The notes beneath the pieces were generated by a model, which did no database searches, was not told the origin of the DNA, and saw only the letters and a program-made list of their open reading frames with translations. The translations under genes were made by a program, and so were the position numbers. A DNA stretch of 64,000 nucleotides from Egibacter rhizosphaerae (lineage in GTDB: Bacteria > Actinomycetota > Nitriliruptoria > Euzebyales > Egibacteraceae). Shown here piece by piece: positions 4,278 to 64,000 of this stretch. Location: assembly GCF_004322855.1 (NCBI RefSeq), contig NZ_CP036402.1:806001-870000 (forward strand). The letters run 5' to 3'. Numbering within the stretch: the first letter of the stretch is position 1; each line of letters begins with the position of its first letter.

Positions 4278-5105
4278 ATGGCGACGATCGGGTTCTCCAG
4301 CTGGGCCTTCCCCGACGACCCGGCGGAGGCGGCGATCGAGGTAGCCCACACCGAAGGGTTCGACGCCCTCGAGTTCGCCTTCCTCACCGAGGGACTGTGG
4401 CAGGGTGAGCACGTGCCGAGGCCGGCGCACGCGGCGCGGCTCGGCGCCGCCTGCGGGGACCTGCGACGCTCGGTGCATGCGCCGATCGAGCCCATGGCGC
4501 TCGCCAGCCCCGACGCCGCGGAGCGGCGCGAGAGCGGCGACCTGCTCGCCCGCAGCATCGAGGCCGCGGCGGCCCTGGCGGCCGAGGTGGTGGTGGTCCA
4601 TCTGCGCCACGGGCGCGAGGCCCCACGGCCGGAGTGGCTGCGTCTGGCCCTCGAGCCGCTGGCATGGTGTGGCGAGCTCGCCCGCGACGCGGGGGTCGTC
4701 CTCGGGGTGGAGAACTACGGAGTGGGCGCCGATCACGCGGATGGCGACTATGCCGCGCTCGTGGCAGCGATCGACGAGCTCGACCACCCCGCGGTGGCGA
4801 TGACCTTCGACACCGGGCACGCCCACGTGCACCTCGAGGGGTCCGGCGCCGTCCCGCGCGCCGCGCAGCACTTCGGGGCCCGGGTCGCGCACTACCACGT
4901 GCACGACAACCTCGGCGTCGAGGACGATCATCTCGCCATCGGCGACGGCTCCGCGGACCTCGTCGGTCTCGTGCCGGGCTGGGCCGACGGGTTCGACGGG
5001 ATGGTGATCCTCGAGATCTTCCCGTTCCGCGTCAACGACGTGCGACCGGGCCTGCGGCGCAGCCGCGACACCCTCCGCGCCTGGTTGCGGGGCTCGGCTA
5101 CTTGA
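4278..5105 (+). CDS. Sugar phosphate isomerase/epimerase-like TIM-barrel protein
   Basis: A 275-residue protein of the xylose-isomerase-like TIM-barrel superfamily (AP endonuclease family 2). It starts MATIGFSSWAFPDDP. Typical strand ends with metal-binding residues are visible: VVVVHLRHG, GVENYG, MTFDTGHAHVHLEG, HYHVHDN and ILEIFPF. It should bind a divalent metal through these Glu, Asp and His residues. The ATG at 4278 has a GGGGAAGGG box upstream. It lies between the phosphodiesterase and the importer, and its last 8 bases overlap the convergent permease gene. A role in processing the imported sugar or polyol is likely, but the substrate cannot be read from sequence. Confidence 0.8.
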   Translation: MATIGFSSWAFPDDPAEAAIEVAHTEGFDALEFAFLTEGLWQGEHVPRPAHAARLGAACGDLRRSVHAPIEPMALASPDAAERRESGDLLARSIEAAAALAAEVVVVHLRHGREAPRPEWLRLALEPLAWCGELARDAGVVLGVENYGVGADHADGDYAALVAAIDELDHPAVAMTFDTGHAHVHLEGSGAVPRAAQHFGARVAHYHVHDNLGVEDDHLAIGDGSADLVGLVPGWADGFDGMVILEIFPFRVNDVRPGLRRSRDTLRAWLRGSAT

Positions 5106-6993: not shown

Positions 6994-8334
6994 CTAGCGG
7001 TAGGGCTCGAGCACCTCGTTGGCGCGCTCGTCGATGTCGGCGAGTGCCTCCTCGGGCGATTGCTCACCCGTGACGGCGGCCTGGAGGCCGTCGTTCACGA
7101 TGTCGTAGACCTCGCCCCGCTGGTACGTCGACAGCTCCCGAACGGTGTCACCCAGCTGGTCCCTGGCCACCTCGGCCTCGGGGAAGTCCTCGACGTACTC
7201 CTGCATCTGGTCGGTCTCCCACGCCTCCGGGGAAGGGGCCACGTAGCCCGTCTCGATGCTCCACTCGGCGGCCTGTTCAGGCTGGGTGAGGAAGCGGATC
7301 AGCTGGAAGGCCGCCCGCTGTTCCTCCTCCGGAGCACCCTCGAAGATGTAGAAGTTGCCACCTCCGGTGGGTGAACCCGGCTCGACGTTCTCCGGCATCG
7401 GCGCGACGCCGAAGTCGAAGGGGGCGTCGTCGCGGATGCTCGCCAGGTTCCCGGTGGTCGTCCAGATGATCGCGGTCTCTTCCTGGAGGAAGTCCTCGGG
7501 GGTGGTGCCCCAGTCCACGACCCCCGGTGGGTGCACGCCGTGCTCGTCGTTCAGCGAGTGCCAGAACTCGAGCGCCTCCACGACCTCGGGCTGGTCGTAG
7601 TAGACCTCGTTGCCCTCGTCGTTCACGATCTCCACGCCCATCTGGGTGGTGAAGGTCTGGAACAGCCAGTAGGGGAACCCACTGGAAGGCATCTGCACGC
7701 CCCACTCGACATCGGAGCCCTCTTGGACCTGGGCGGACATATCGACCAGTTCGTCCCAGGTCCCCGGTGGCTGCTCGGGGTCGAGTCCGGCCTCCTCGAA
7801 CGCGTCCTTGTTGTAGTACTGCACGATCGTGGACCGCTGGAACGGGATGCCCCAGGTGGTGCCCTCGCCGTCGCGGCTGTTGAGCATGAACTCGTCGTAG
7901 AACGAGTCCAGCCACTCCTCCTCGTCCTCGTCGGTCACGAGCTCGTCGAAGGGCACGATCAGATCGTCGTCGATCAACGAGAACATGTCGGTGGACAGCA
8001 GCACGGTCGTCGCCGGGACGTCACCGGCGTCGATCGCGCTCTGGGCTTGGACGATCGTGTCGTCGTAGTTCCCGGAGTAGACCGGGTTGACCTGGATCTC
8101 CGGGTGCTCTGCCTCGAAGTCGGCCACGAGGCCGTCGACCACGTCCTCGAGCGGCCCACCGACCGCGATCGGGTAGTACATGGTGATCTCGACGGGATCG
8201 TCCTCGGTGGCCTCGTCGAGGGTGTCCTGTCCCGCCTCACCGGCCTCGTCCTCGCCACAAGCCGCCGCGAGCAGGCCGAGGCCCGCGAGCACGGCGAGCA
8301 GAGCAAGGTGCCGGCGGATTCGGATCCGCTGCAT
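6994..8334 (-). CDS. ABC transporter substrate-binding lipoprotein (UgpB-like family)
   Basis: A cluster 1-type extracellular solute-binding protein of 446 residues. The signal peptide ends in a lipobox (LGLLAAAC), so Cys would be lipid-modified and the protein anchored to the outer face of the membrane. The mature part is rich in Asp and Glu. Sequences such as WGIPFQRSTIVQYYNKDAFEEAGLDP and a C-terminal AFQLIRFLTQPEQAAEW block are typical of the family. Three ATGs lie close together (8343, 8340, 8334); I took 8334 because the GAAGGG box is then nine bases away. The ATPase gene stop overlaps these starts, so translation is probably coupled. Confidence 0.9.
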   Translation of the reverse strand: MQRIRIRRHLALLAVLAGLGLLAAACGEDEAGEAGQDTLDEATEDDPVEITMYYPIAVGGPLEDVVDGLVADFEAEHPEIQVNPVYSGNYDDTIVQAQSAIDAGDVPATTVLLSTDMFSLIDDDLIVPFDELVTDEDEEEWLDSFYDEFMLNSRDGEGTTWGIPFQRSTIVQYYNKDAFEEAGLDPEQPPGTWDELVDMSAQVQEGSDVEWGVQMPSSGFPYWLFQTFTTQMGVEIVNDEGNEVYYDQPEVVEALEFWHSLNDEHGVHPPGVVDWGTTPEDFLQEETAIIWTTTGNLASIRDDAPFDFGVAPMPENVEPGSPTGGGNFYIFEGAPEEEQRAAFQLIRFLTQPEQAAEWSIETGYVAPSPEAWETDQMQEYVEDFPEAEVARDQLGDTVRELSTYQRGEVYDIVNDGLQAAVTGEQSPEEALADIDERANEVLEPYR

Positions 8335-8339
8335 GTTCA

Positions 8340-9452
<1,113 letters not shown>

Positions 9453-55762: not shown

Positions 55763-57429
55763 GCCACTCGACCGTGAACCCAGGCAGCGCACCTGCGAGC
55801 GTGTCCGCGCCCTCCGCGGGCCCTCGCGGCGGATCGTTCGCCGGCACCCGCGCCCTCGCGCGCCTCGTCCTGCGGCGCGACCGCATCCGCATCCCGGCCT
55901 GGACCGTCGGCATCGTCGGGTTCGTCACGGCCTCGGCCGCGAGCGTGCCCGAGGTGTACCCGACCGCCGCGGAGCTCGAGGCACGAGGCGAGTTCGTGCG
56001 CAGCCCCGTGCTGACGATCTTCTCCGGACCCGGCTACGGCGCCGAGGACTACACCGTCGGCGCGATGGTCGCCAACGAGTACATGATCTACGGCGCGGTC
56101 GCCCTCGCGCTGATGAGCATCCTCATGGTCGTTCGTCACACCCGCGCCGAGGAGGAGTCGGGGCGTGCCGAGCTGGTCCGTGCGGCGGTGGTGGGCCGCC
56201 ATGCGGCCCTGACGGCGGCGCTCGCCGTGACCGTGGGCGTCAACCTGCTGATCGGCGCACTGACCGCGCTCGCCCTGGCGGCCAGCCTCGCCGAGCTCTC
56301 GACCGTTGGCTCGTGGGCCCTCGGCCTGTCGATGGCCGCAGCCGGCATCGCGTTCGCGGGGGTGGCCGGGGTGGCAGCTCAGCTCACCGAGCACGCACGC
56401 GGCGCGATCGGGATCGGCGTGGCGACGCTCGGAGTCTCGTTCGTGCTGCGAGCCGCGGGTGACATCGGCGACGACCGGGTGTTGTCGTGGGCCTCGCCGA
56501 TCGGGTGGGCGCAGTCCACCCGCGCCTACGTCGACGAACGCTGGTGGCCGTTGCTGCTGGCGGTCGCGTTCGCTGTGCTGTTGACGGCAGCGGCCTACGC
56601 ACTGGAGAACCGCCGCGACGTCACCGCCGGGTTGTTCCCCCCACGCCCTGGTCCCGCGCAGGCGTCGAGGCGGCTGGCGACCCCAAGTGGCCTCGCCCTG
56701 CGACTGCAGCGGACCCAGCTGGCCGCTTGGGGCGTCGGACTGGTGGCGTTCGGGGCGATATTCGGTTCCCTGGTCGGCGAGGTCGAGGTGTTCCTCGAGG
56801 AGGCCCCCGAGCTGCAGGAGTTCTTCGGCGCCGCCGAGGATGGCGCGTTGACCCAGGCGTTCCTCAGCATCGTGATGTCGCTGCTCGGCTTGCTCGCCAC
56901 TGGCTACGCGCTCGCCGCGGCGTCTCGGCTGCGCAGCGAGGAGACCGCCGGCCGTGCGGAACCGCTGCTCGCAACGGCGATCACCCGCTGGCGCTGGGCC
57001 AGCGGGCACCTCACCGTCGCGATGATCGGTGGCGCTGCCGTCCTGCTCGCAACCGCAACCGCCATGGGCATCGTCGCCGGGATCCAGCTGGGCGACGCCT
57101 CGTGGGTGCCCTCGATGCTCGGCGCTGGACTCGCCCTCGTTCCCGCCATGTGGCTCATCGTTGGCGCCACCGTGGCGCTGTACGGGCTGGCACCTCGCCT
57201 CGCCCCCCTCGGCTGGGCCGTCCTCGGCTACGCCGCCATCGTCGCCTTCATGGCAGACCCGCTGGACCTGCCCGACGGCGCCCGTGCCCTCTCCCCCTTC
57301 CACCACGTACCAGAGCTACCCGGCGGCGACGTCGAAGTCACCGCGCTGCTCGTCCTCACGACCATCGCAGCCGCGCTCGTCCTATTCGGTCGAGCCGCCT
57401 TGCGACGGCGCGACATCAACGTCACCTAG
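55759..57429 (+). CDS. ABC exporter permease, polyketide/multidrug type
   Basis: A 556-residue protein with about twelve helices, a fused double permease. The first half includes [35 protein letters not shown] and the ETAGR-like [17 protein letters not shown]; the second repeats the pattern ([28 protein letters not shown]). This matches the exporter permeases that pair with such ATPases in actinobacteria. The GTG start overlaps the ATPase stop. Confidence 0.9.
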
Positions 57430-57522: not shown

Positions 57523-58569
57523 TCAGCTCGGCGTCGGGTGCTCGGCGGTCAGCGGTGGCGTGCTGTCACGCAGGACGACCTCGCCCGCCACCCGGCGCAC
57601 GCGGGGCCGTTCGGAGGGCTCCTCGACGGCGAGGCGGAGCGCCTCTGCTCCGATGTGCTGAAGGGGGAGCCGCACGGTGGTGAGCCCGGGCGTGATGTCG
57701 CGCAGCGTCGCGATGTCGTCGAAGCCCGCCACCCCGATGCCGTCCGGGGGCACGCGGTCGACCTCGCGCAGCGCGGCCAGGGCACCAACCGCCATCACGT
57801 CGTTGACAGCGAAGACGCAGGTGACCGTCGGGTCGAGCTCGAGGAGGCGGTGCATCGCTCGGTAACCGCCGTCGCGCGTGAACTCGTCCTCGACCACCCG
57901 CTCGGGCGGGACCGGCGCCCCCAGCTGCGCCAGTTCGGTGCGGAAGCCGGCGGTCCGGTCGCGCGAGGTGATCAGCCGCGGAGCGGTGGCCAGGACGGCG
58001 AAGCGTCGATGGCCCAGCCCGTGGAGCTCTCGCGCGAGCGCTCGTGCGCCGGCGCGGTTCTCCACCTGCACAGTGTCGACGGGCAACCGCTTCTGGCTGA
58101 CCAGCACCGCCCGACCGCCGGTCTCCTCGTAGGCGGCGAGCTCCTCGCCGAGTCGGTCGAGCAGCTCGCGGTCGTCGAGCCGGCTCCCGGCCAGCACGAG
58201 CGCGCGAGCCCGCTGCATGCGCAGCATCCGCACGTACTCGAACTCTTGCTCGGGGTCGCGGTCGGTGGCGGCAACGGTCACGACGAGCTGGTGGGAGGCC
58301 GCCTCGGCCATGAGGCCCTTGGCGATGGACGAGAAGTAGGGGTCGGCGATGTCGTGGACGACGAGGCCGGCAACCGAGGTCTGGCCTCGCGCGACCGCTT
58401 GCGCGTGGCTGTTCGGCGTGTAGTTGAGCGACCGCGCGGCCATCCAGACGCGCTGCTCGAGCTCAGGGCGCACCCGCCGGTCGCGGCTGCCGTTGAGCGC
58501 TCGCGAGGCCGTGGCGATGGACACCCCCGCAGCCTGCGCCACGTCGAGCAGTGTGGTCGAGGTCGCCAC
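57523..58569 (-). CDS. LacI-family regulator of the right-end cluster
   Basis: A 348-residue repressor. The helix-turn-helix is TTLLDVAQAAGVSIATASRALNGS, followed by the hinge and the sugar-binding-protein-like domain (VAGLVVHDIADPYFSSIAKGLMAEA ... GIGVAGFDDIATLRDITPGLTTV). The GTG 58569 start is divergent from the ABC importer operon. It should respond to the substrate of that operon. Confidence 0.9.
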   Translation of the reverse strand: MATSTTLLDVAQAAGVSIATASRALNGSRDRRVRPELEQRVWMAARSLNYTPNSHAQAVARGQTSVAGLVVHDIADPYFSSIAKGLMAEAASHQLVVTVAATDRDPEQEFEYVRMLRMQRARALVLAGSRLDDRELLDRLGEELAAYEETGGRAVLVSQKRLPVDTVQVENRAGARALARELHGLGHRRFAVLATAPRLITSRDRTAGFRTELAQLGAPVPPERVVEDEFTRDGGYRAMHRLLELDPTVTCVFAVNDVMAVGALAALREVDRVPPDGIGVAGFDDIATLRDITPGLTTVRLPLQHIGAEALRLAVEEPSERPRVRRVAGEVVLRDSTPPLTAEHPTPS

Positions 58570-58651
58570 GTCGCTCGCCTCCTCTCAGTACCGGGCCGGG
58601 CGCTGGGGCCATCGCGCGCGTGCCCACTGACCAGGCTAGATCACCCGACAG

Positions 58652-58667
58652 TGGAAAGCGTCTACCA
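58652..58667. promoter_or_regulatory. Candidate LacI operator before the right-end cluster
   Basis: TGGAAAGCGTCTACCA has the LacI-family shape: outer TGG/CCA arms and a central CG-containing core. It lies in the 241-base divergent gap between the regulator and the importer operon. The match is imperfect. Confidence 0.4.
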
Positions 58668-58810
58668 GTTGTATGGGCCCCACCCCTTGTGTCCTTCCTC
58701 CTGAGCCCCTACCGTCCGCGGTAAGCCCTTACCAAAAGGTTGGTCAACGCGGTGCCGCGCAGCGCCCGGCCCGCCGCGGACGAAGGGCTCGAGCCGACAA
58801 GGAGGCGAAG

Positions 58811-59887
58811 ATGCAGCGCTCCCGCAGACAAGCCCTCCTGGCGACCCTCCTGGGTCTCCTCGCGATGATGCTCGTGGCATGTGCGGAGGACGCCGGCGAC
58901 GAGGTGGGAGCCGACGCCGACCCCGACGACGCCGAGGCTGACGACGCTCCCGACGACGCTCCCGACGACGCCGATGCGACGGAGGGCGAGCTCACCGAGG
59001 TCGAGCTCGTGGCCTTCGAGCCACCCTCCCTGGGTGCGTTCCTGCCGGCGGTCATCGAGGCGCAGGGCTTCGACGAGCAGCACGGCCTAGACCTCGACTT
59101 CGTGGAGCGCCCCCCGGGGCCCTACAACACCGAGTTCGGCGCCGGGCAGTTCGACGTCGGGGCGAGCGGCTCGCTGATGAGCGAGGCCGTGCGCGTGACC
59201 GAAGGCGTCGATGTCGTCTACCTGTTCAACGTCTTCGACTACTGGGCGACGGTCGTGGCCACCACCGACGAGATCCAGGAGCTGCCCGACATCGAGGGCG
59301 GCACGCTGGCCGGAGCGACGGTCGCGACGAGTTGGGCGATGTTCGAGTGGTTCGCCCAGGAGGAGGGCCTCGACCTCGACGAGACCGAGGTCCAGGACGT
59401 CGACACCGGTGGGCTGGGGACCCAGGCCCAGACCGGCCGCAGCGACGCGGTGCAGATGTGGGAGCCAGGCTTCACGACGCTCATGGCCGACGACCCGGAG
59501 GGTGTGCACGAGGTCGGCATCCCGATCGAGCTCTGGGAGGAGGAGTTCGGCTTCGACGAGATCCCCTACCTCGGTGTCGCCGCCCACCAGGACTGGGTCG
59601 ACGAGAACGAGGAGATCATCCCCGACCTGCGCGCGGTCTACGAGGACGCGGCCGACTGGAGCCTCGACAACCCCGCGGAGGCGGCCGAGATCATCGCCGA
59701 CACGATCGAAGGCGGTGACGCCGAGGCGCTCACGGGCCTCCTCGAGGACAACGACCGGCTCGGGCTCAACGTCCAGCCCGCCCACGAGGTCGCCGACGGC
59801 ATCCGCGCGGTCTTCGACGCGGGCGTCGAGATCGGCTACTTCGAGGAGCCGCCGTCCGACGACGTCATCTACGAGGGGGCCGAATGA
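58811..59887 (+). CDS. ABC importer substrate-binding lipoprotein, Tau/Ssu/NMT1 type
   Basis: A 358-residue lipoprotein with lipobox MMLVAC and a highly acidic linker (DADPDDAEADDAPDDAPDD). The binding domain follows: LGAFLPAVIEAQGFDEQHGLDLDFVERP, then FGAGQFDVGASGSLMSEAVRV and VVATTDEIQELPDIEGGTLAG. This fold usually binds sulfonates, pyrimidine precursors or aromatics. Its place in a LacI/Gfo-Idh cluster suggests a sugar-like or polyol ligand instead, which is uncommon for the family. GGAGG precedes ATG 58811. Confidence 0.88.
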   Translation: MQRSRRQALLATLLGLLAMMLVACAEDAGDEVGADADPDDAEADDAPDDAPDDADATEGELTEVELVAFEPPSLGAFLPAVIEAQGFDEQHGLDLDFVERPPGPYNTEFGAGQFDVGASGSLMSEAVRVTEGVDVVYLFNVFDYWATVVATTDEIQELPDIEGGTLAGATVATSWAMFEWFAQEEGLDLDETEVQDVDTGGLGTQAQTGRSDAVQMWEPGFTTLMADDPEGVHEVGIPIELWEEEFGFDEIPYLGVAAHQDWVDENEEIIPDLRAVYEDAADWSLDNPAEAAEIIADTIEGGDAEALTGLLEDNDRLGLNVQPAHEVADGIRAVFDAGVEIGYFEEPPSDDVIYEGAE

Positions 59888-60774
59888 GCCTCGACGCGGC
59901 CTCGGGCACGCTCGCCTCCCCGCGGACGTGGTGGCAGCGGGTGCGCAACGGCGCACCCGTCGAGGCCGTGGCCTCGGTGGGTGCCCTGCTGGTGGCGTGG
60001 GTGATCGTCGCCGAATTCACCCCGCCGTACATCCTCCCGCAGATCACCGTCGTACTCGCCGACGTGCGCAACATCCTCTTCGAGCTCGAGTCCCTGGACC
60101 ACGTGGTGCGGACGCTGGTCCGCATCCTCGCGGGGCTCGCTGCCGCGTTCGTCATCGGCACGGGCCTGGGGCTAGCGATGGGGCGGCTGCGCCGCCTCGA
60201 CCGCGCGCTCATGCCCCCGTTGCAGATGATCCAGGGCATTCCGTCCTTGAGTTGGGTGATCATCGCCATCATCTGGTTCCAGACCGTCGAGCTGAGGATC
60301 TGGTTCATCGTGCTGATGGTCACGCTGCCGGGGTTCGTGTTCCAAGCGCTCGACTCGTACCGCGCTGTGCCCCGGGAGCTGCGGGACATGGCACGCTCGC
60401 TGCGGCCGCGCCGCCTGGACCTGTTCCGGACGGTGACGTTGCCGGCGATCGTGCCCGACCTGCTCACCGCGTGGAAGGTCAACCTCGGTCTCGGCACCCG
60501 CGTCGTGCTCGTGGCCGAGCTGGTCGGCGCTGCGATCGGCGTCGGCTACCAGCTGCGCACGAGCGAGCAGATGTTCGACATGTCCGGGGTCATGGCGTGG
60601 ACCGCCGTGCTCGTGCTGTTCGTCCTGCTGGTGCAGAGCGTGATCTCGCGCATCGAGCGTCACCTGTTGCGATACCGCCAGCAGGGTGAGGACCAGCAAG
60701 CAGCACCACCGCCGGAGCAGACCCAGCAGCCGGCGGCAGTCAGCGGCGAGGGCGCTGGGGGTGCCGATCGATGA
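59884..60774 (+). CDS. ABC importer permease, TauC/SsuC type
   Basis: A 296-residue permease. Helix VASVGALLVAWVIVAEF lies near the start. The ATPase-contact loop reads VPRELRDMARSLRPRRLDLFRTVTLPAIVPDLLTAWKVN, and LVAELVGAAIGVGYQL is typical of the TauC/SsuC family. It overlaps the genes on both sides by ATGA junctions. A Gln/Pro-rich C-terminal tail of about 35 residues is unusual. Confidence 0.9.
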   Translation: MSLDAASGTLASPRTWWQRVRNGAPVEAVASVGALLVAWVIVAEFTPPYILPQITVVLADVRNILFELESLDHVVRTLVRILAGLAAAFVIGTGLGLAMGRLRRLDRALMPPLQMIQGIPSLSWVIIAIIWFQTVELRIWFIVLMVTLPGFVFQALDSYRAVPRELRDMARSLRPRRLDLFRTVTLPAIVPDLLTAWKVNLGLGTRVVLVAELVGAAIGVGYQLRTSEQMFDMSGVMAWTAVLVLFVLLVQSVISRIERHLLRYRQQGEDQQAAPPPEQTQQPAAVSGEGAGGADR

Positions 60775-61595
60775 CCGAGCTCACACGTGAGGGAGACGTG
60801 ATGCCCCAGAACGCCACTCCGGCCGGGGGCGACGCCGCGCCCGCGGACACCGTCATCGCGTTCGAGGGCGCGGAGAAGCGGTTCCCCTCCAAGGAGGGCG
60901 CGCCGGTCACCGCGCTCAAGGGATTGGACCTCAGCGTCGCGTCCGGCGAGATGGTCGCCATCGTCGGCCAGACCGGGTGTGGCAAGTCCACGGCGTTCAA
61001 CCTGCTGCTCGGCTTGTACGAGCCGACCTCCGGGCGAGTGACCGTCGCGGGCTGCAACCCCTACGCGCAGTTCCAGGACCTCAAGGGCCGTATCGCGGTC
61101 GTGTTCCAGGATGACCGCCTCCTGCCGTGGCGAACCGCCGAGCAGAACGTCGCGCTCGGCCTCGAGTACCAGGGGCTCGGTAAGTCCGAGCGCCTGGAGA
61201 TCGCTCGCACGTGGCTGGGTCGGCTCGGCCTCGAGGGCCGGGAGAGCGCGTACCCGCACCAGCTGTCAGGCGGGATGCGCCAGCGCGTGGGCATCGCGCG
61301 CTGTTTCGCGTTGAACCCCGACATCATCCTGTGCGACGAGTCGTTCAGCCGCCTCGACGAGTTGACCGCCGAGCGCCTACGCGGCGAGTTCGTGAACCTG
61401 GTCAAGGACGAGGGAAAGACCGGCGTGTTCATCACCCACTCGATCGAGGAGGCGCTGTCCATCGGCGACCGCGTCGTGGTGTTCCGCGCACCGGGGCACG
61501 TGGCCGCCGAGTTCACCATCCCGGCAGGACTCGAGTCCGCTGAGCTCGGCAGCTACCGCCAGCGGATCCGCGAGGCGATGGCAACCGCGCCCTGA
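60771..61595 (+). CDS. ABC importer ATPase, TauB/SsuB type
   Basis: A 274-residue ATPase with Walker A GQTGCGKST, Q-loop FQDDRLLPWRTAEQN (the LLPW stretch is typical of this family), signature LSGGMRQRVGIARCF, Walker B IILCDESFSRLD and H-loop THS. In Walker B the usual DEP is DES. The N-terminus may start at 60771 or at ATG 60801. Confidence 0.9.
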   Translation: MTELTREGDVMPQNATPAGGDAAPADTVIAFEGAEKRFPSKEGAPVTALKGLDLSVASGEMVAIVGQTGCGKSTAFNLLLGLYEPTSGRVTVAGCNPYAQFQDLKGRIAVVFQDDRLLPWRTAEQNVALGLEYQGLGKSERLEIARTWLGRLGLEGRESAYPHQLSGGMRQRVGIARCFALNPDIILCDESFSRLDELTAERLRGEFVNLVKDEGKTGVFITHSIEEALSIGDRVVVFRAPGHVAAEFTIPAGLESAELGSYRQRIREAMATAP

Positions 61596-61773
61596 CCCCA
61601 CACGGCGCCCCGTGCCGCCCTCACGACGGGCTTCCCCGACCCAGCCGCCGTTCAGGGCCGCGGGGAGTGGAGCCAGCCCTCAGGCAGGGACCTCAGGCGG
61701 GGATCGGGGTCAGGAACCAGCACACGAACGCTCGTCGGCGCCCGTGGGCCCGAGAGAGGAACCGAGGTGAGCA

Positions 61774-62943
61774 ATGGCAGAGCAAGTACTGGGTGTGGTC
61801 ATGAACGGGGTGACCGGACGGATGGGGTACCGCCAGCACCTCGTGCGGTCGGTGCTCGCGATCCGCGAGCAAGGCGGCGTGCAGCTGTCGGACGGGCGGC
61901 GCGTCCAGCTCGAGCCGATCCTCGTGGGGCGACGCGAGGCCAAGCTCCGCGAGCTCGCCGCCGAGCACGGCCTCCAGCGGTGGACCACCGACCTCGACGA
62001 GGCGCTGCGGATCGCCCCGACCATCGGTGACGGTGACCCGGCGGTCTACTTCGACGCCCAGGTGACCCAGGCGCGGCAGCCGGCGATCCTGGCCGCCCTC
62101 GACGCCGGCTTGCACGTCTACACCGAGAAGCCGATCGCCGAGACGGTCGAGGGTTCGGTCGAGCTCGCGCGCGCGGCCCGCAAGGCCGGGGTCACGCACG
62201 GGGTGGTCCACGACAAGCTCTACCTGCCGGGGCTCACGAAGCTTTCCCGCGTGGTCGACAGCGGCTTCTTCGGGCGCGTGCTGTCGGTGCGGGGGGAGTT
62301 CGGCTACTGGGTGTTCGAGGGCGACTGGCAGCCCGCGCAGCGCCCGAGCTGGAACTACCGCGCCGAGGACGGCGGCGGCGTCGTCGTCGACATGTTCCCA
62401 CACTGGAGTTACGTCCTCGAGAACCTCATCGGGCGGGTCGAGGCGGTCACCGCGAAGGCCGTGACGCACATCCCCGAGCGCTGGGACGAGCAGGGCCGCC
62501 GCTACACCGCCTCGGCCGACGACGCCGCCTACGCGATCCTCGAGCTCGAGGGCGGGGTGATCGCCCAGATCAACTCGTCCTGGGCGGTTCGTCTCTACCG
62601 TGACGAGCTGGTCGAGTTCCAGGTCGACGGGGTGCACGGCAGCGCGGTCGCCGGGCTGTTCGGATGCCGCACCCAGGATCGGGCCAACACGCCCAAGCCG
62701 GTGTGGGACCCCGACGTGCCGACGTCGCACCGCTTCCGCGACCAGTGGCTCGACGTCCCTGACAACACGGCCTTCGACAACGGGTTCAAGCAGCAGTGGG
62801 AGGCCTTCGTCCGCGACGTCGCCGACGGCGCTGCGCATCAGTACGACTTCGTCTCCGGCGTACGCGGCAACCAACTGGCCGCCGCGGGCCTGGCGTCGTC
62901 GCGTGAGGGCAGCCGCGTTGCCCTGGAGGAGATCCACCCATGA
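61774..62943 (+). CDS. Gfo/Idh/MocA-family oxidoreductase
   Basis: A 389-residue NAD(P)-dependent dehydrogenase. The N-terminal dinucleotide loop reads VMNGVTGRMGYR, different from the usual GxGxxG. The family motif TEKPIAE is intact and supplies the catalytic Lys. The C-terminal domain includes VVDMFPHWSYVLENLIGRVEAVTAKAV. Members oxidise sugars, inositols or their derivatives. It lies between the importer and the DUF993 gene, whose start overlaps its stop. Confidence 0.9.
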   Translation: MAEQVLGVVMNGVTGRMGYRQHLVRSVLAIREQGGVQLSDGRRVQLEPILVGRREAKLRELAAEHGLQRWTTDLDEALRIAPTIGDGDPAVYFDAQVTQARQPAILAALDAGLHVYTEKPIAETVEGSVELARAARKAGVTHGVVHDKLYLPGLTKLSRVVDSGFFGRVLSVRGEFGYWVFEGDWQPAQRPSWNYRAEDGGGVVVDMFPHWSYVLENLIGRVEAVTAKAVTHIPERWDEQGRRYTASADDAAYAILELEGGVIAQINSSWAVRLYRDELVEFQVDGVHGSAVAGLFGCRTQDRANTPKPVWDPDVPTSHRFRDQWLDVPDNTAFDNGFKQQWEAFVRDVADGAAHQYDFVSGVRGNQLAAAGLASSREGSRVALEEIHP

Positions 62944-64000
62944 GCACCAGTGTCCGCCTGCGCCGACCCGACGGCTCGACGTACGTGCGCGAGCTGCACG
63001 ACCCCCCGGTCTGGCCGCAGCCGACGCGGCCGATCGCCAGTCGCGTCGCGTATGCGGCGGTTCCGGTCATGGCCGCGCCCGCCGGCGCCAACGCCCTCGG
63101 CGCCACCGCCGAGCTCGACTGGGAGGCCACGCTCGCGGTCCGCCGCGAGATCTGGGCCTACGGGCTCGGTGTCGCCGAGGCGATGGACACCGCCCAACGC
63201 GGCATGGGCTTGGACTGGGCCACCACCGAGGAGCTGATCCGCCGCAGCAGCGCCGAGGCCGCGGCGGTGGGTGGTCGGATCGCGGCCGGGGCGGGCACCG
63301 ACCACCTCAGCGGCGCCGCGACGGTGGGTGAGGTCGTCGCCGGCTACGAGCACCAACTCGAGGTCGTCGAGCGGGCCGGCGCCCGGCCCATCCTCATGGC
63401 CAGCCGCCACCTCGCCGCGCTCGCCCGAGGTCCGGGCGACTACGCCGAGGTGTACGGCAAGCTGCTGGCCCAGGTACGGCGCCCGGCCATTCTGCACTGG
63501 CTCGGGGCGCCATTCGATCCAGCTCTGGCGGGCTACTGGGGCAGCGCGGACCTCGACGAGGCCTCCGAGGCCTTCCTCGAGATCGTCAACGCCCACGCCG
63601 ACGTCGTCGAGGGTGTGAAGATCTCGTTGCTCGACGCCGATCGCGAGGTCGCCCTGCGGGAACGGCTACCGGCGGGCGTGGCGATGTACACCGGCGACGA
63701 CTTCAACTACCCGACGCTCATCCGAGGCGACCAGCGCAGCTACAGCGACGCGCTGTTGGGGATCTTCGCCGGGATCGCCCCCGCGGCGTCGGCGGCGCTG
63801 CAGGCGCTCGACGCAGGCGACGTCGAGGGGTTCGACGCCGCGTTCGCGCCGACGGTGCCGTTGGCCCGCCACGTGTTCGCCTCGCCCACCTACTACTACA
63901 AGACCGGCTTGGGCTTCCTCGCGTGGCTTCGGGGCCAGCAACCGGGGTTCACGATGGTCGGCGGCCTGCAGGGAGGGCGGAGCGTCCCCCACCTCGTCCG
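62940..64000 (+). CDS. DUF993 (dihydrodipicolinate-synthase-like) protein, cut by the right edge
   Basis: The first 353 codons of a DUF993 protein. TIM-barrel-like segments are visible (WEATLAVRREIWAYGLGVAEAMDTAQRGMGLDW, RPILMASRHLAALARGP, VVEGVKISLLDADRE). It is described in databases as dihydrodipicolinate-synthase-like. In VEGVKISLLD the Lys could serve for Schiff-base chemistry. It is coupled by ATGA to the oxidoreductase gene. It probably cleaves or dehydrates the oxidised product. Confidence 0.85.
   Translation, partial: MSTSVRLRRPDGSTYVRELHDPPVWPQPTRPIASRVAYAAVPVMAAPAGANALGATAELDWEATLAVRREIWAYGLGVAEAMDTAQRGMGLDWATTEELIRRSSAEAAAVGGRIAAGAGTDHLSGAATVGEVVAGYEHQLEVVERAGARPILMASRHLAALARGPGDYAEVYGKLLAQVRRPAILHWLGAPFDPALAGYWGSADLDEASEAFLEIVNAHADVVEGVKISLLDADREVALRERLPAGVAMYTGDDFNYPTLIRGDQRSYSDALLGIFAGIAPAASAALQALDAGDVEGFDAAFAPTVPLARHVFASPTYYYKTGLGFLAWLRGQQPGFTMVGGLQGGRSVPHLV

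Follow-up and report, generated by a model that had tools for sequence, protein, structure and literature searches.

A predicted LacI operator joins an NMT1-type importer to a conserved Gfo/Idh–DUF993–isomerase cassette in Egibacter rhizosphaerae

What might a repressor of the LacI family, an importer of the NMT1 type, a sugar-type dehydrogenase and a protein of the DUF993 family do together? Genes for all four lie side by side at the right-hand end of a 64,000-nucleotide stretch of Egibacter rhizosphaerae DNA (here the window; bases 806001–870000 of the single-contig 4.64-Mb genome), which we analysed along with the DNA beyond its right end. We found that the cluster is genuine and that its enzymes, an oxidoreductase of the Gfo/Idh/MocA family (here Gfo), DUF993 and a xylose-isomerase-like TIM-barrel protein (here the isomerase), form a conserved cassette. 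A predicted operator places the ATP-binding cassette (ABC) importer in the regulon of this cassette, and glycerate kinase genes found beside related cassettes suggest that glycerate is probably one product of the pathway.

Each gene that a sequence-only reading had named in the cluster was recovered in its place by Pfam, and the isomerase that this reading had proposed to look for past base 64000 is there as well (PF01261); its start overlaps the end of the DUF993 gene by 4 nt, placing it in the same operon (Table 1). The operon consists of two blocks with 4-nt gene overlaps, one encoding the binding protein, permease and ATPase of the importer and the other encoding Gfo, DUF993 and the isomerase, with a 178-bp gap between them. 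The first recognisable sequence 3' of the isomerase gene is a fragment of an exporter permease gene, and the operon therefore appears to end after the isomerase gene. Scans for promoter and terminator consensus sequences found neither.

Relatives of DUF993 number at least 575 in a scan of GTDB-species genomes. We counted neighbours (matches at E ≤ 1e-12 with at least 35% coverage) at 92 DUF993 loci, about half of which are of the Streptomyces type, so that the counts are not independent. A Gfo gene of the same subfamily adjoins DUF993 in 86 of these loci and a xylose-isomerase-like gene in 89, and a LacI gene is present in 71. Other carriers of the trio are Paenibacillus, Thermosporothrix, Paracoccus, Qingshengfaniella and one Gemmatimonadetes genome; among the relatives of the window genome itself it is patchy (5 of 61 genomes). 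Moreover, NMT1-type importers of a different lineage adjoin the cassette in five other genera; the idea that the arrangement is peculiar to the window genome is thus not upheld. DUF993 and isomerase genes are also found without this Gfo, in rhizobia, Sagittula, Roseateles and one Rhodococcus, where genes for an acyl-CoA dehydrogenase and a short-chain dehydrogenase/reductase (SDR) are present instead; most such loci also carry a CoA-transferase, an enoyl-CoA hydratase and/or electron-transfer flavoproteins. One locus of this type (L110) additionally encodes a degradative 3-hydroxy-3-methylglutaryl-CoA reductase. Separately, a plasmid locus of Streptomyces yangpuensis holds a lone DUF993 gene (7812–9002), located between genes for a mycofactocin-coupled SDR and a flavin adenine dinucleotide (FAD) monooxygenase and adjoining a type I polyketide synthase, with neither Gfo nor isomerase at the locus; DUF993 on this plasmid may have been co-opted for biosynthesis.

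In other loci, the palindromes that precede Gfo share the consensus RGAAAGCGCTTTCY. Using as the criterion a match of at least 11 of 14 positions to GGAAAGCGCTTTCC in the region upstream of Gfo, we found the motif in 71 of 85 other loci, versus 1.1% of shuffled sequences. We then scanned 82 kb with a position weight matrix (PWM) built from other genomes only, the window sites being excluded. The gap between the LacI and binding-protein genes contained the first-ranked (58717–58736) and third-ranked (58650–58669) matches, and besides operator 1, which lies within the former, the 4.64-Mb genome has a single further site that differs from GGWAAGCSCTTWCC at no more than one position. The second-best match (5469) is near another xylose-isomerase-like gene of the window, at 4338–5078 (genome 810338–811078; PF01261, E = 6e-30). 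A palindromic operator centred on CG and shared between junctions of regulator and operon, as in LacI-regulated sugar catabolic operons, is thus predicted here. Because the operator recurs twice in the gap between LacI and the transporter, the importer belongs to the predicted regulon of the cassette, and a coupling that had been guessed from adjacency is now backed by a predicted shared operator. Consistent with this, Rhodococcoides, Nocardia and Mycolicibacterium have two operator copies, the first ahead of Gfo and the other ahead of the operon of an NMT1-type importer. In Actinoallomurus, copies of the operator are found in the LacI–importer interval and also close to the start of a gene for a secreted glucose/sorbosone-dehydrogenase-like protein, which is a possible extracellular first step.

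Table 1. Cluster features in window coordinates, with related genes of Actinoallomurus in locus coordinates
Feature	Position	Strand	Evidence or remark
LacI-family repressor	57523–58569	-	PF00356 E 3.9e-14, PF13377 E 1.6e-26; divergent from the operon
NMT1/THI5-type substrate-binding lipoprotein	58811–59887	+	PF09084 E 4.6e-13
ABC permease, NitT/TauT class	59884–60774	+	PF00528 E 6.3e-18
ABC ATPase, NitT/TauT class	60771–61595	+	PF00005 E 2.3e-33
Gfo/Idh/MocA oxidoreductase, 3oqb subfamily	61774–62943	+	PF22725, PF02894, PF01408
DUF993	62940–64100 (in window to 64000)	+	PF06187 E 6.6e-157
Xylose-isomerase-like TIM barrel	64097–64987 (outside window)	+	PF01261 E 1.2e-39
Predicted LacI operator 1	58720–58733		palindrome GGTAAGCCCTTACC; rank 1 of 82-kb PWM scan
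Predicted LacI operator 2	58653–58666		GGAAAGCGTCTACC; rank 3 of 82-kb PWM scan
Direct repeat, left copy	57067–57429	+	363 bp; 3' end of exporter permease gene
Direct repeat, right copy	~65402–65764 (beyond window)		truncated copy
Secreted glucose/sorbosone-dehydrogenase-like genes beside the trio, Actinoallomurus	L016:10008–12149; L023:9834–12047		

The importer had been described as of the Tau/Ssu type, a description that holds for the superfamily and fails for the family. The binding protein, whose gene has an ATG start with AAGGAGG upstream and encodes the lipobox LVAC (both read directly from the sequence), scores 50 bits against the PF09084 gathering cut-off of 20.5 and 50.3 bits against the SsuA subfamily cut-off of 163.5 (TIGR01728). 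The best NCBIfam matches of the permease are SaoP, NtrB and TauC, each under its cut-off, and none of the three components reaches a curated cut-off for taurine, sulfonate, nitrate or choline systems. The importer therefore resembles SsuA/TauA/ThiY-type systems in its NMT1 fold family and its TauC- and TauB-like partners, but falls under every curated cut-off for a named transporter and stands within the predicted LacI regulon of a carbohydrate-type cassette. Since the binding protein has no close relative in 198 other genomes of the phylum (E ≤ 1e-20), its ligand cannot be inferred by orthology. The one importer of the other lineage that we tested is nearest ThiY/THI5 by sequence; its binding protein does not align significantly with that of the window (E = 0.28), and the permeases and ATPases are 22% and 36% identical, respectively. 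These comparisons suggest either separate recruitment of the same class of importer or a very old divergence. Elsewhere the cassette is accompanied by importers of the carbohydrate uptake transporter families CUT1 and CUT2 or of the tripartite ATP-independent periplasmic (TRAP) type.

Gfo has three Pfam domains above cut-off, and its closest structure is PDB 3oqb (E = 5.4e-144). The catalytic residues K119 and H210 are retained, and both E118-K119-P120 and H210 are present in all 80 relatives. The nucleotide loop GVTGRMG had been called unusual, but it proves to be a signature of the subfamily: it is also found in 3oqb, and all 80 relatives share N11, G12, T14, G15, R16, M17 and G18, with V13 being V in 73 and I in 7. 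We therefore dropped the loop as a sign of novel chemistry. The residues G52-R53 that follow strand 2, likewise identical in 80 of 80, suggest a preference for nicotinamide adenine dinucleotide phosphate (NADP), and an NAD(P) transhydrogenase gene located between the trio and the glycerate kinase gene in Qingshengfaniella would fit an NADP-linked step. Two named activities were considered and rejected, with Gfo scoring 59.3 bits against the equivalog cut-off of 650 for levoglucosan dehydrogenase (NF052479) and 47.2 bits against that of 355 for the inositol 2-dehydrogenase IolG (TIGR04380).

DUF993 matches PF06187 at 522.8 bits within the window (cut-off 24) and at 565.3 bits over the whole gene, spanning model positions 2–382 of 382. 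Its full-length match PDB 4dnh (52% identity), Sinorhizobium meliloti SMc04132, is itself uncharacterised and offers no function. A structure model (mean predicted local distance difference test score, pLDDT, 91) matches 4dnh best and then dihydrodipicolinate synthase (DHDPS) structures, with template-modelling (TM) scores, normalised to the target, of 0.72–0.81 (for 6mqh, Foldseek E = 3e-10 and TM 0.79). The suggestion that DUF993 is aldolase-like is thus borne out for the fold, that of DHDPS-type class-I aldolases. In the model the barrel strands span residues 36–40, 77–80, 114–118, 149–152, 183–188, 223–229, 248–251 and 271–276. In DHDPS enzymes the lysine that forms the Schiff base is on barrel strand 6, and in DUF993 K227, identical in 84 of 84 sequences, lies on strand 223–229, the sixth by count, an equivalence of position only. 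DUF993 thus shares with the DHDPS/N-acetylneuraminate lyase superfamily a TIM barrel and a strand-6 lysine, but differs in having no sequence similarity detectable with the DHDPS chains of the PDB or with the single DHDPS-family pair compared, an extra N-terminal hairpin and, at the end of strand 183–188, an invariant H186-W187 in place of the strand-5 tyrosine (YN motif). PF06187 is its sole Pfam match, to the exclusion of PF00701; sequence searches that included the DHDPS chains in the PDB found nothing credible beyond 4dnh, and an hhalign comparison with KdgD, represented by two sequences, found nothing. The isomerase, for its part, yields a model (pLDDT 91) that among characterised folds comes nearest to IolI, dehydroshikimate dehydratase, ketose 3-epimerases, UlaE and YcjR, and its residues E161, D197, H200 and E267 are conserved.

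The best clue to a product comes from genes that accompany the cassette elsewhere. A glycerate kinase gene is present in 15 of 52 loci that are not of the Streptomyces type and in 0 of 46 that are, where chance would give about 0.6% per locus (assuming 1.5 such genes per 4 Mb); relatedness among the loci deprives an exact probability of meaning, but the association extends over about ten genera. The kinases belong to two unrelated families, PF02595 in actinobacteria and PF13660 plus PF05161, nearest glycerate 2-kinase, in proteobacteria, and it is this occurrence of non-homologous glycerate kinases at the same place that makes glycerate probably one product of the pathway. Because the Gfo-less loci of S. 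meliloti pSymA and of Roseateles, in which an acyl-CoA dehydrogenase and an SDR replace Gfo, also carry the kinase, the connection with glycerate appears to run through DUF993 and the isomerase and not through Gfo. The window genome has its own PF02595 glycerate kinase gene at 154 kb, away from the cluster. Three loci add genes for a 5-dehydro-4-deoxyglucarate dehydratase and a galactarate-dehydratase-like protein of the enolase superfamily, two of them with an aldehyde dehydrogenase as well, and the pAO1 and Paracoccus loci also add an aldehyde dehydrogenase. Together, the glycerate kinases, the aldarate-pathway neighbours at three loci and the TRAP importers indirectly favour a sugar acid as the substrate, for which the sequence-only reading had proposed an oxidisable polyol or sugar acid. 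Two loci from the same class as the window genome (L100 and L101) combine the trio with the 5-dehydro-4-deoxyglucarate dehydratase, the galactarate-dehydratase-like protein, an aldehyde dehydrogenase and a glycerate kinase, and have operator-like copies in the interval that separates an additional Gfo gene from an ABC permease gene.

Non-phosphorylative Entner–Doudoroff and aldarate pathways end with 2-keto-3-deoxygluconate (KDG) aldolase or GarL, followed by glycerate kinase. The common logic is sugar oxidation, a class-I aldolase fold (as in KDG aldolase) and a glycerate kinase beside many of the cassettes; the window operon, however, has no sugar-acid dehydratase and an aldolase-type protein of another family, so that the analogy is one of logic only.

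Taken together, these observations lead us to propose an inducible catabolic operon. LacI would repress the operon through the two predicted operators until an inducer arrives, and the importer would take up its substrate, which most likely is a small molecule of anionic or polyhydroxylated nature. Gfo would oxidise a hydroxyl group, presumably with NADP; the isomerase, as a metal-dependent TIM-barrel protein, would isomerise or dehydrate the resulting keto compound; and DUF993 would cleave it by retro-aldol chemistry via a Schiff base on Lys227. One C3 product would end as glycerate, to be phosphorylated by the glycerate kinase encoded elsewhere in the genome. We infer the order of the steps, the cofactor, the C–C cleavage and the class of substrate; gene content, operator sharing, the cassette, folds, residues and the kinase association are computed. 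The chances that this sequence of import, NADP-linked oxidation, isomerisation or dehydration, Schiff-base cleavage and conversion of a C3 unit to glycerate is correct appear to us evenly balanced. Tentatively, and with somewhat more doubt than belief, we further suggest that DUF993 represents a new family of class-I aldolases that, along with Gfo and the isomerase, cleaves an unphosphorylated keto-sugar or keto-sugar acid to glycerate, in an undescribed route that is widespread in soil bacteria and is fed by interchangeable importers, among them the NMT1 type, which as a rule is not linked to carbohydrates.

Several points weigh against this proposal. Rhizobia and others keep DUF993 and the isomerase with an acyl-CoA dehydrogenase, an SDR and a CoA-transferase rather than with this Gfo, and the Streptomyces-type loci have neither this class of importer nor a glycerate kinase nearby. 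Since the class of importer varies by lineage (NMT1, CUT1, CUT2 or TRAP), the substrate may differ as well, and since DUF993 has an invariant His-Trp at strand 5 instead of the DHDPS-triad tyrosine, its activity may be other than that of an aldolase.

Among the alternatives, a route for glycosides of the levoglucosan or O-glycoside type fares best, although we regard it as unlikely. Here a glycosyl unit would be oxidised at C3 by Gfo and would lose its aglycone by elimination through the TIM-barrel protein (perhaps with imine catalysis by the DUF993 lysine), after which hydration and reduction would restore the sugar. On this reading the aglycone would be glycerate, released for example from glucosylglycerate. 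The same two enzyme families do act in this way in the breakdown of levoglucosan and 3-keto-glycosides (PMC7676230, PMC10066097, PMC10628242), and the levoglucosan pathway LgdA/LgdB/LgdC has the make-up of the window operon in that a Gfo dehydrogenase, a xylose-isomerase-like protein and an ABC importer are encoded in one operon (PMC10066097). The isomerase model is similar to YcjR, an enzyme whose substrates are 3-keto-glucosides, and the association with glycerate kinase together with an anion-type importer would suit a glycosylglycerate. However, the window Gfo lies far under the levoglucosan dehydrogenase (LgdA) cut-off (59 versus 650), the importer is of another class, and the operon has no second Gfo that could serve as a 3-keto reductase of the LgdC type. 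It has, moreover, an added aldolase-type barrel that lies outside the known eliminase pathways and is unmentioned in the two eliminase papers searched for it.

Improbable, in our view, is a cyclitol-like route, in which Gfo would make an inosose, the TIM-barrel protein would isomerise or dehydrate this inosose in the manner of IolI or IolE, and DUF993 would process the ring-opened product. IolI is indeed the closest characterised fold of the isomerase (TM 0.77–0.82), and inositol dehydrogenases belong to the Gfo enzymes, but the window Gfo is far under the IolG cut-off (47 versus 355), and the operon shows no gene recognisable as IolB-, IolC-, IolD- or IolJ-like. Furthermore, to our knowledge, glycerate is not among the products of the known inositol pathway. 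Finally, that an ordinary sulfonate, nitrate or thiamine-precursor importer lies by chance beside an unrelated sugar cassette, as its NMT1 superfamily, the seven NMT1-type matches in the genome and the 178 bp between the two blocks might allow, is more improbable still, given that both predicted operators of the cassette's LacI are directly upstream of the importer, that no gene for sulfonate, nitrate or thiamine functions was noticed in the operon and the importer falls short of the cut-offs for all such families, and that in five other genera the cassette goes together with NMT1-type importers of the other lineage, mostly with the same operator.

How the cluster reached its present site is suggested by a 363-bp direct repeat that brackets all of it, with 336 of 363 positions (93%) identical between the copies. 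The left copy is the 3' end of an ABC-exporter permease gene. The right copy is preceded by a 37-bp match to an upstream part of the same gene and therefore looks like a decayed duplicate. The G+C content differs little (0.69–0.74 versus 0.71). The repeat and the patchy distribution of the trio suggest that the exporter gene was the site of an insertion or duplication by which the cluster was acquired.

The sequence-only reading had also suggested that the route is undescribed, and in a library of 5.39 million open papers we indeed found no description of it and no use of the term DUF993; the verdict is to that extent provisional. SMc04132 and SMc04133 of S. meliloti appear there only as entries in a proteome table of one regulator, and nothing useful was found on the pAO1 sugar operon or the Paenibacillus isomerase structure. 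Relatives of all three enzymes have structural-genomics structures, and we found no assigned function for any. Many soil actinobacteria carry the cassette, and rhizobia, Paracoccus, Paenibacillus and Chloroflexota have all or part of it. The link to glycerate kinase and the operator make of an orphan family a testable pathway, in terms of its product, of an inducer screen with LacI and the binding protein, and of the putative catalytic lysine. If the proposal is true, NMT1-type importers extend beyond sulfonates and vitamin precursors.

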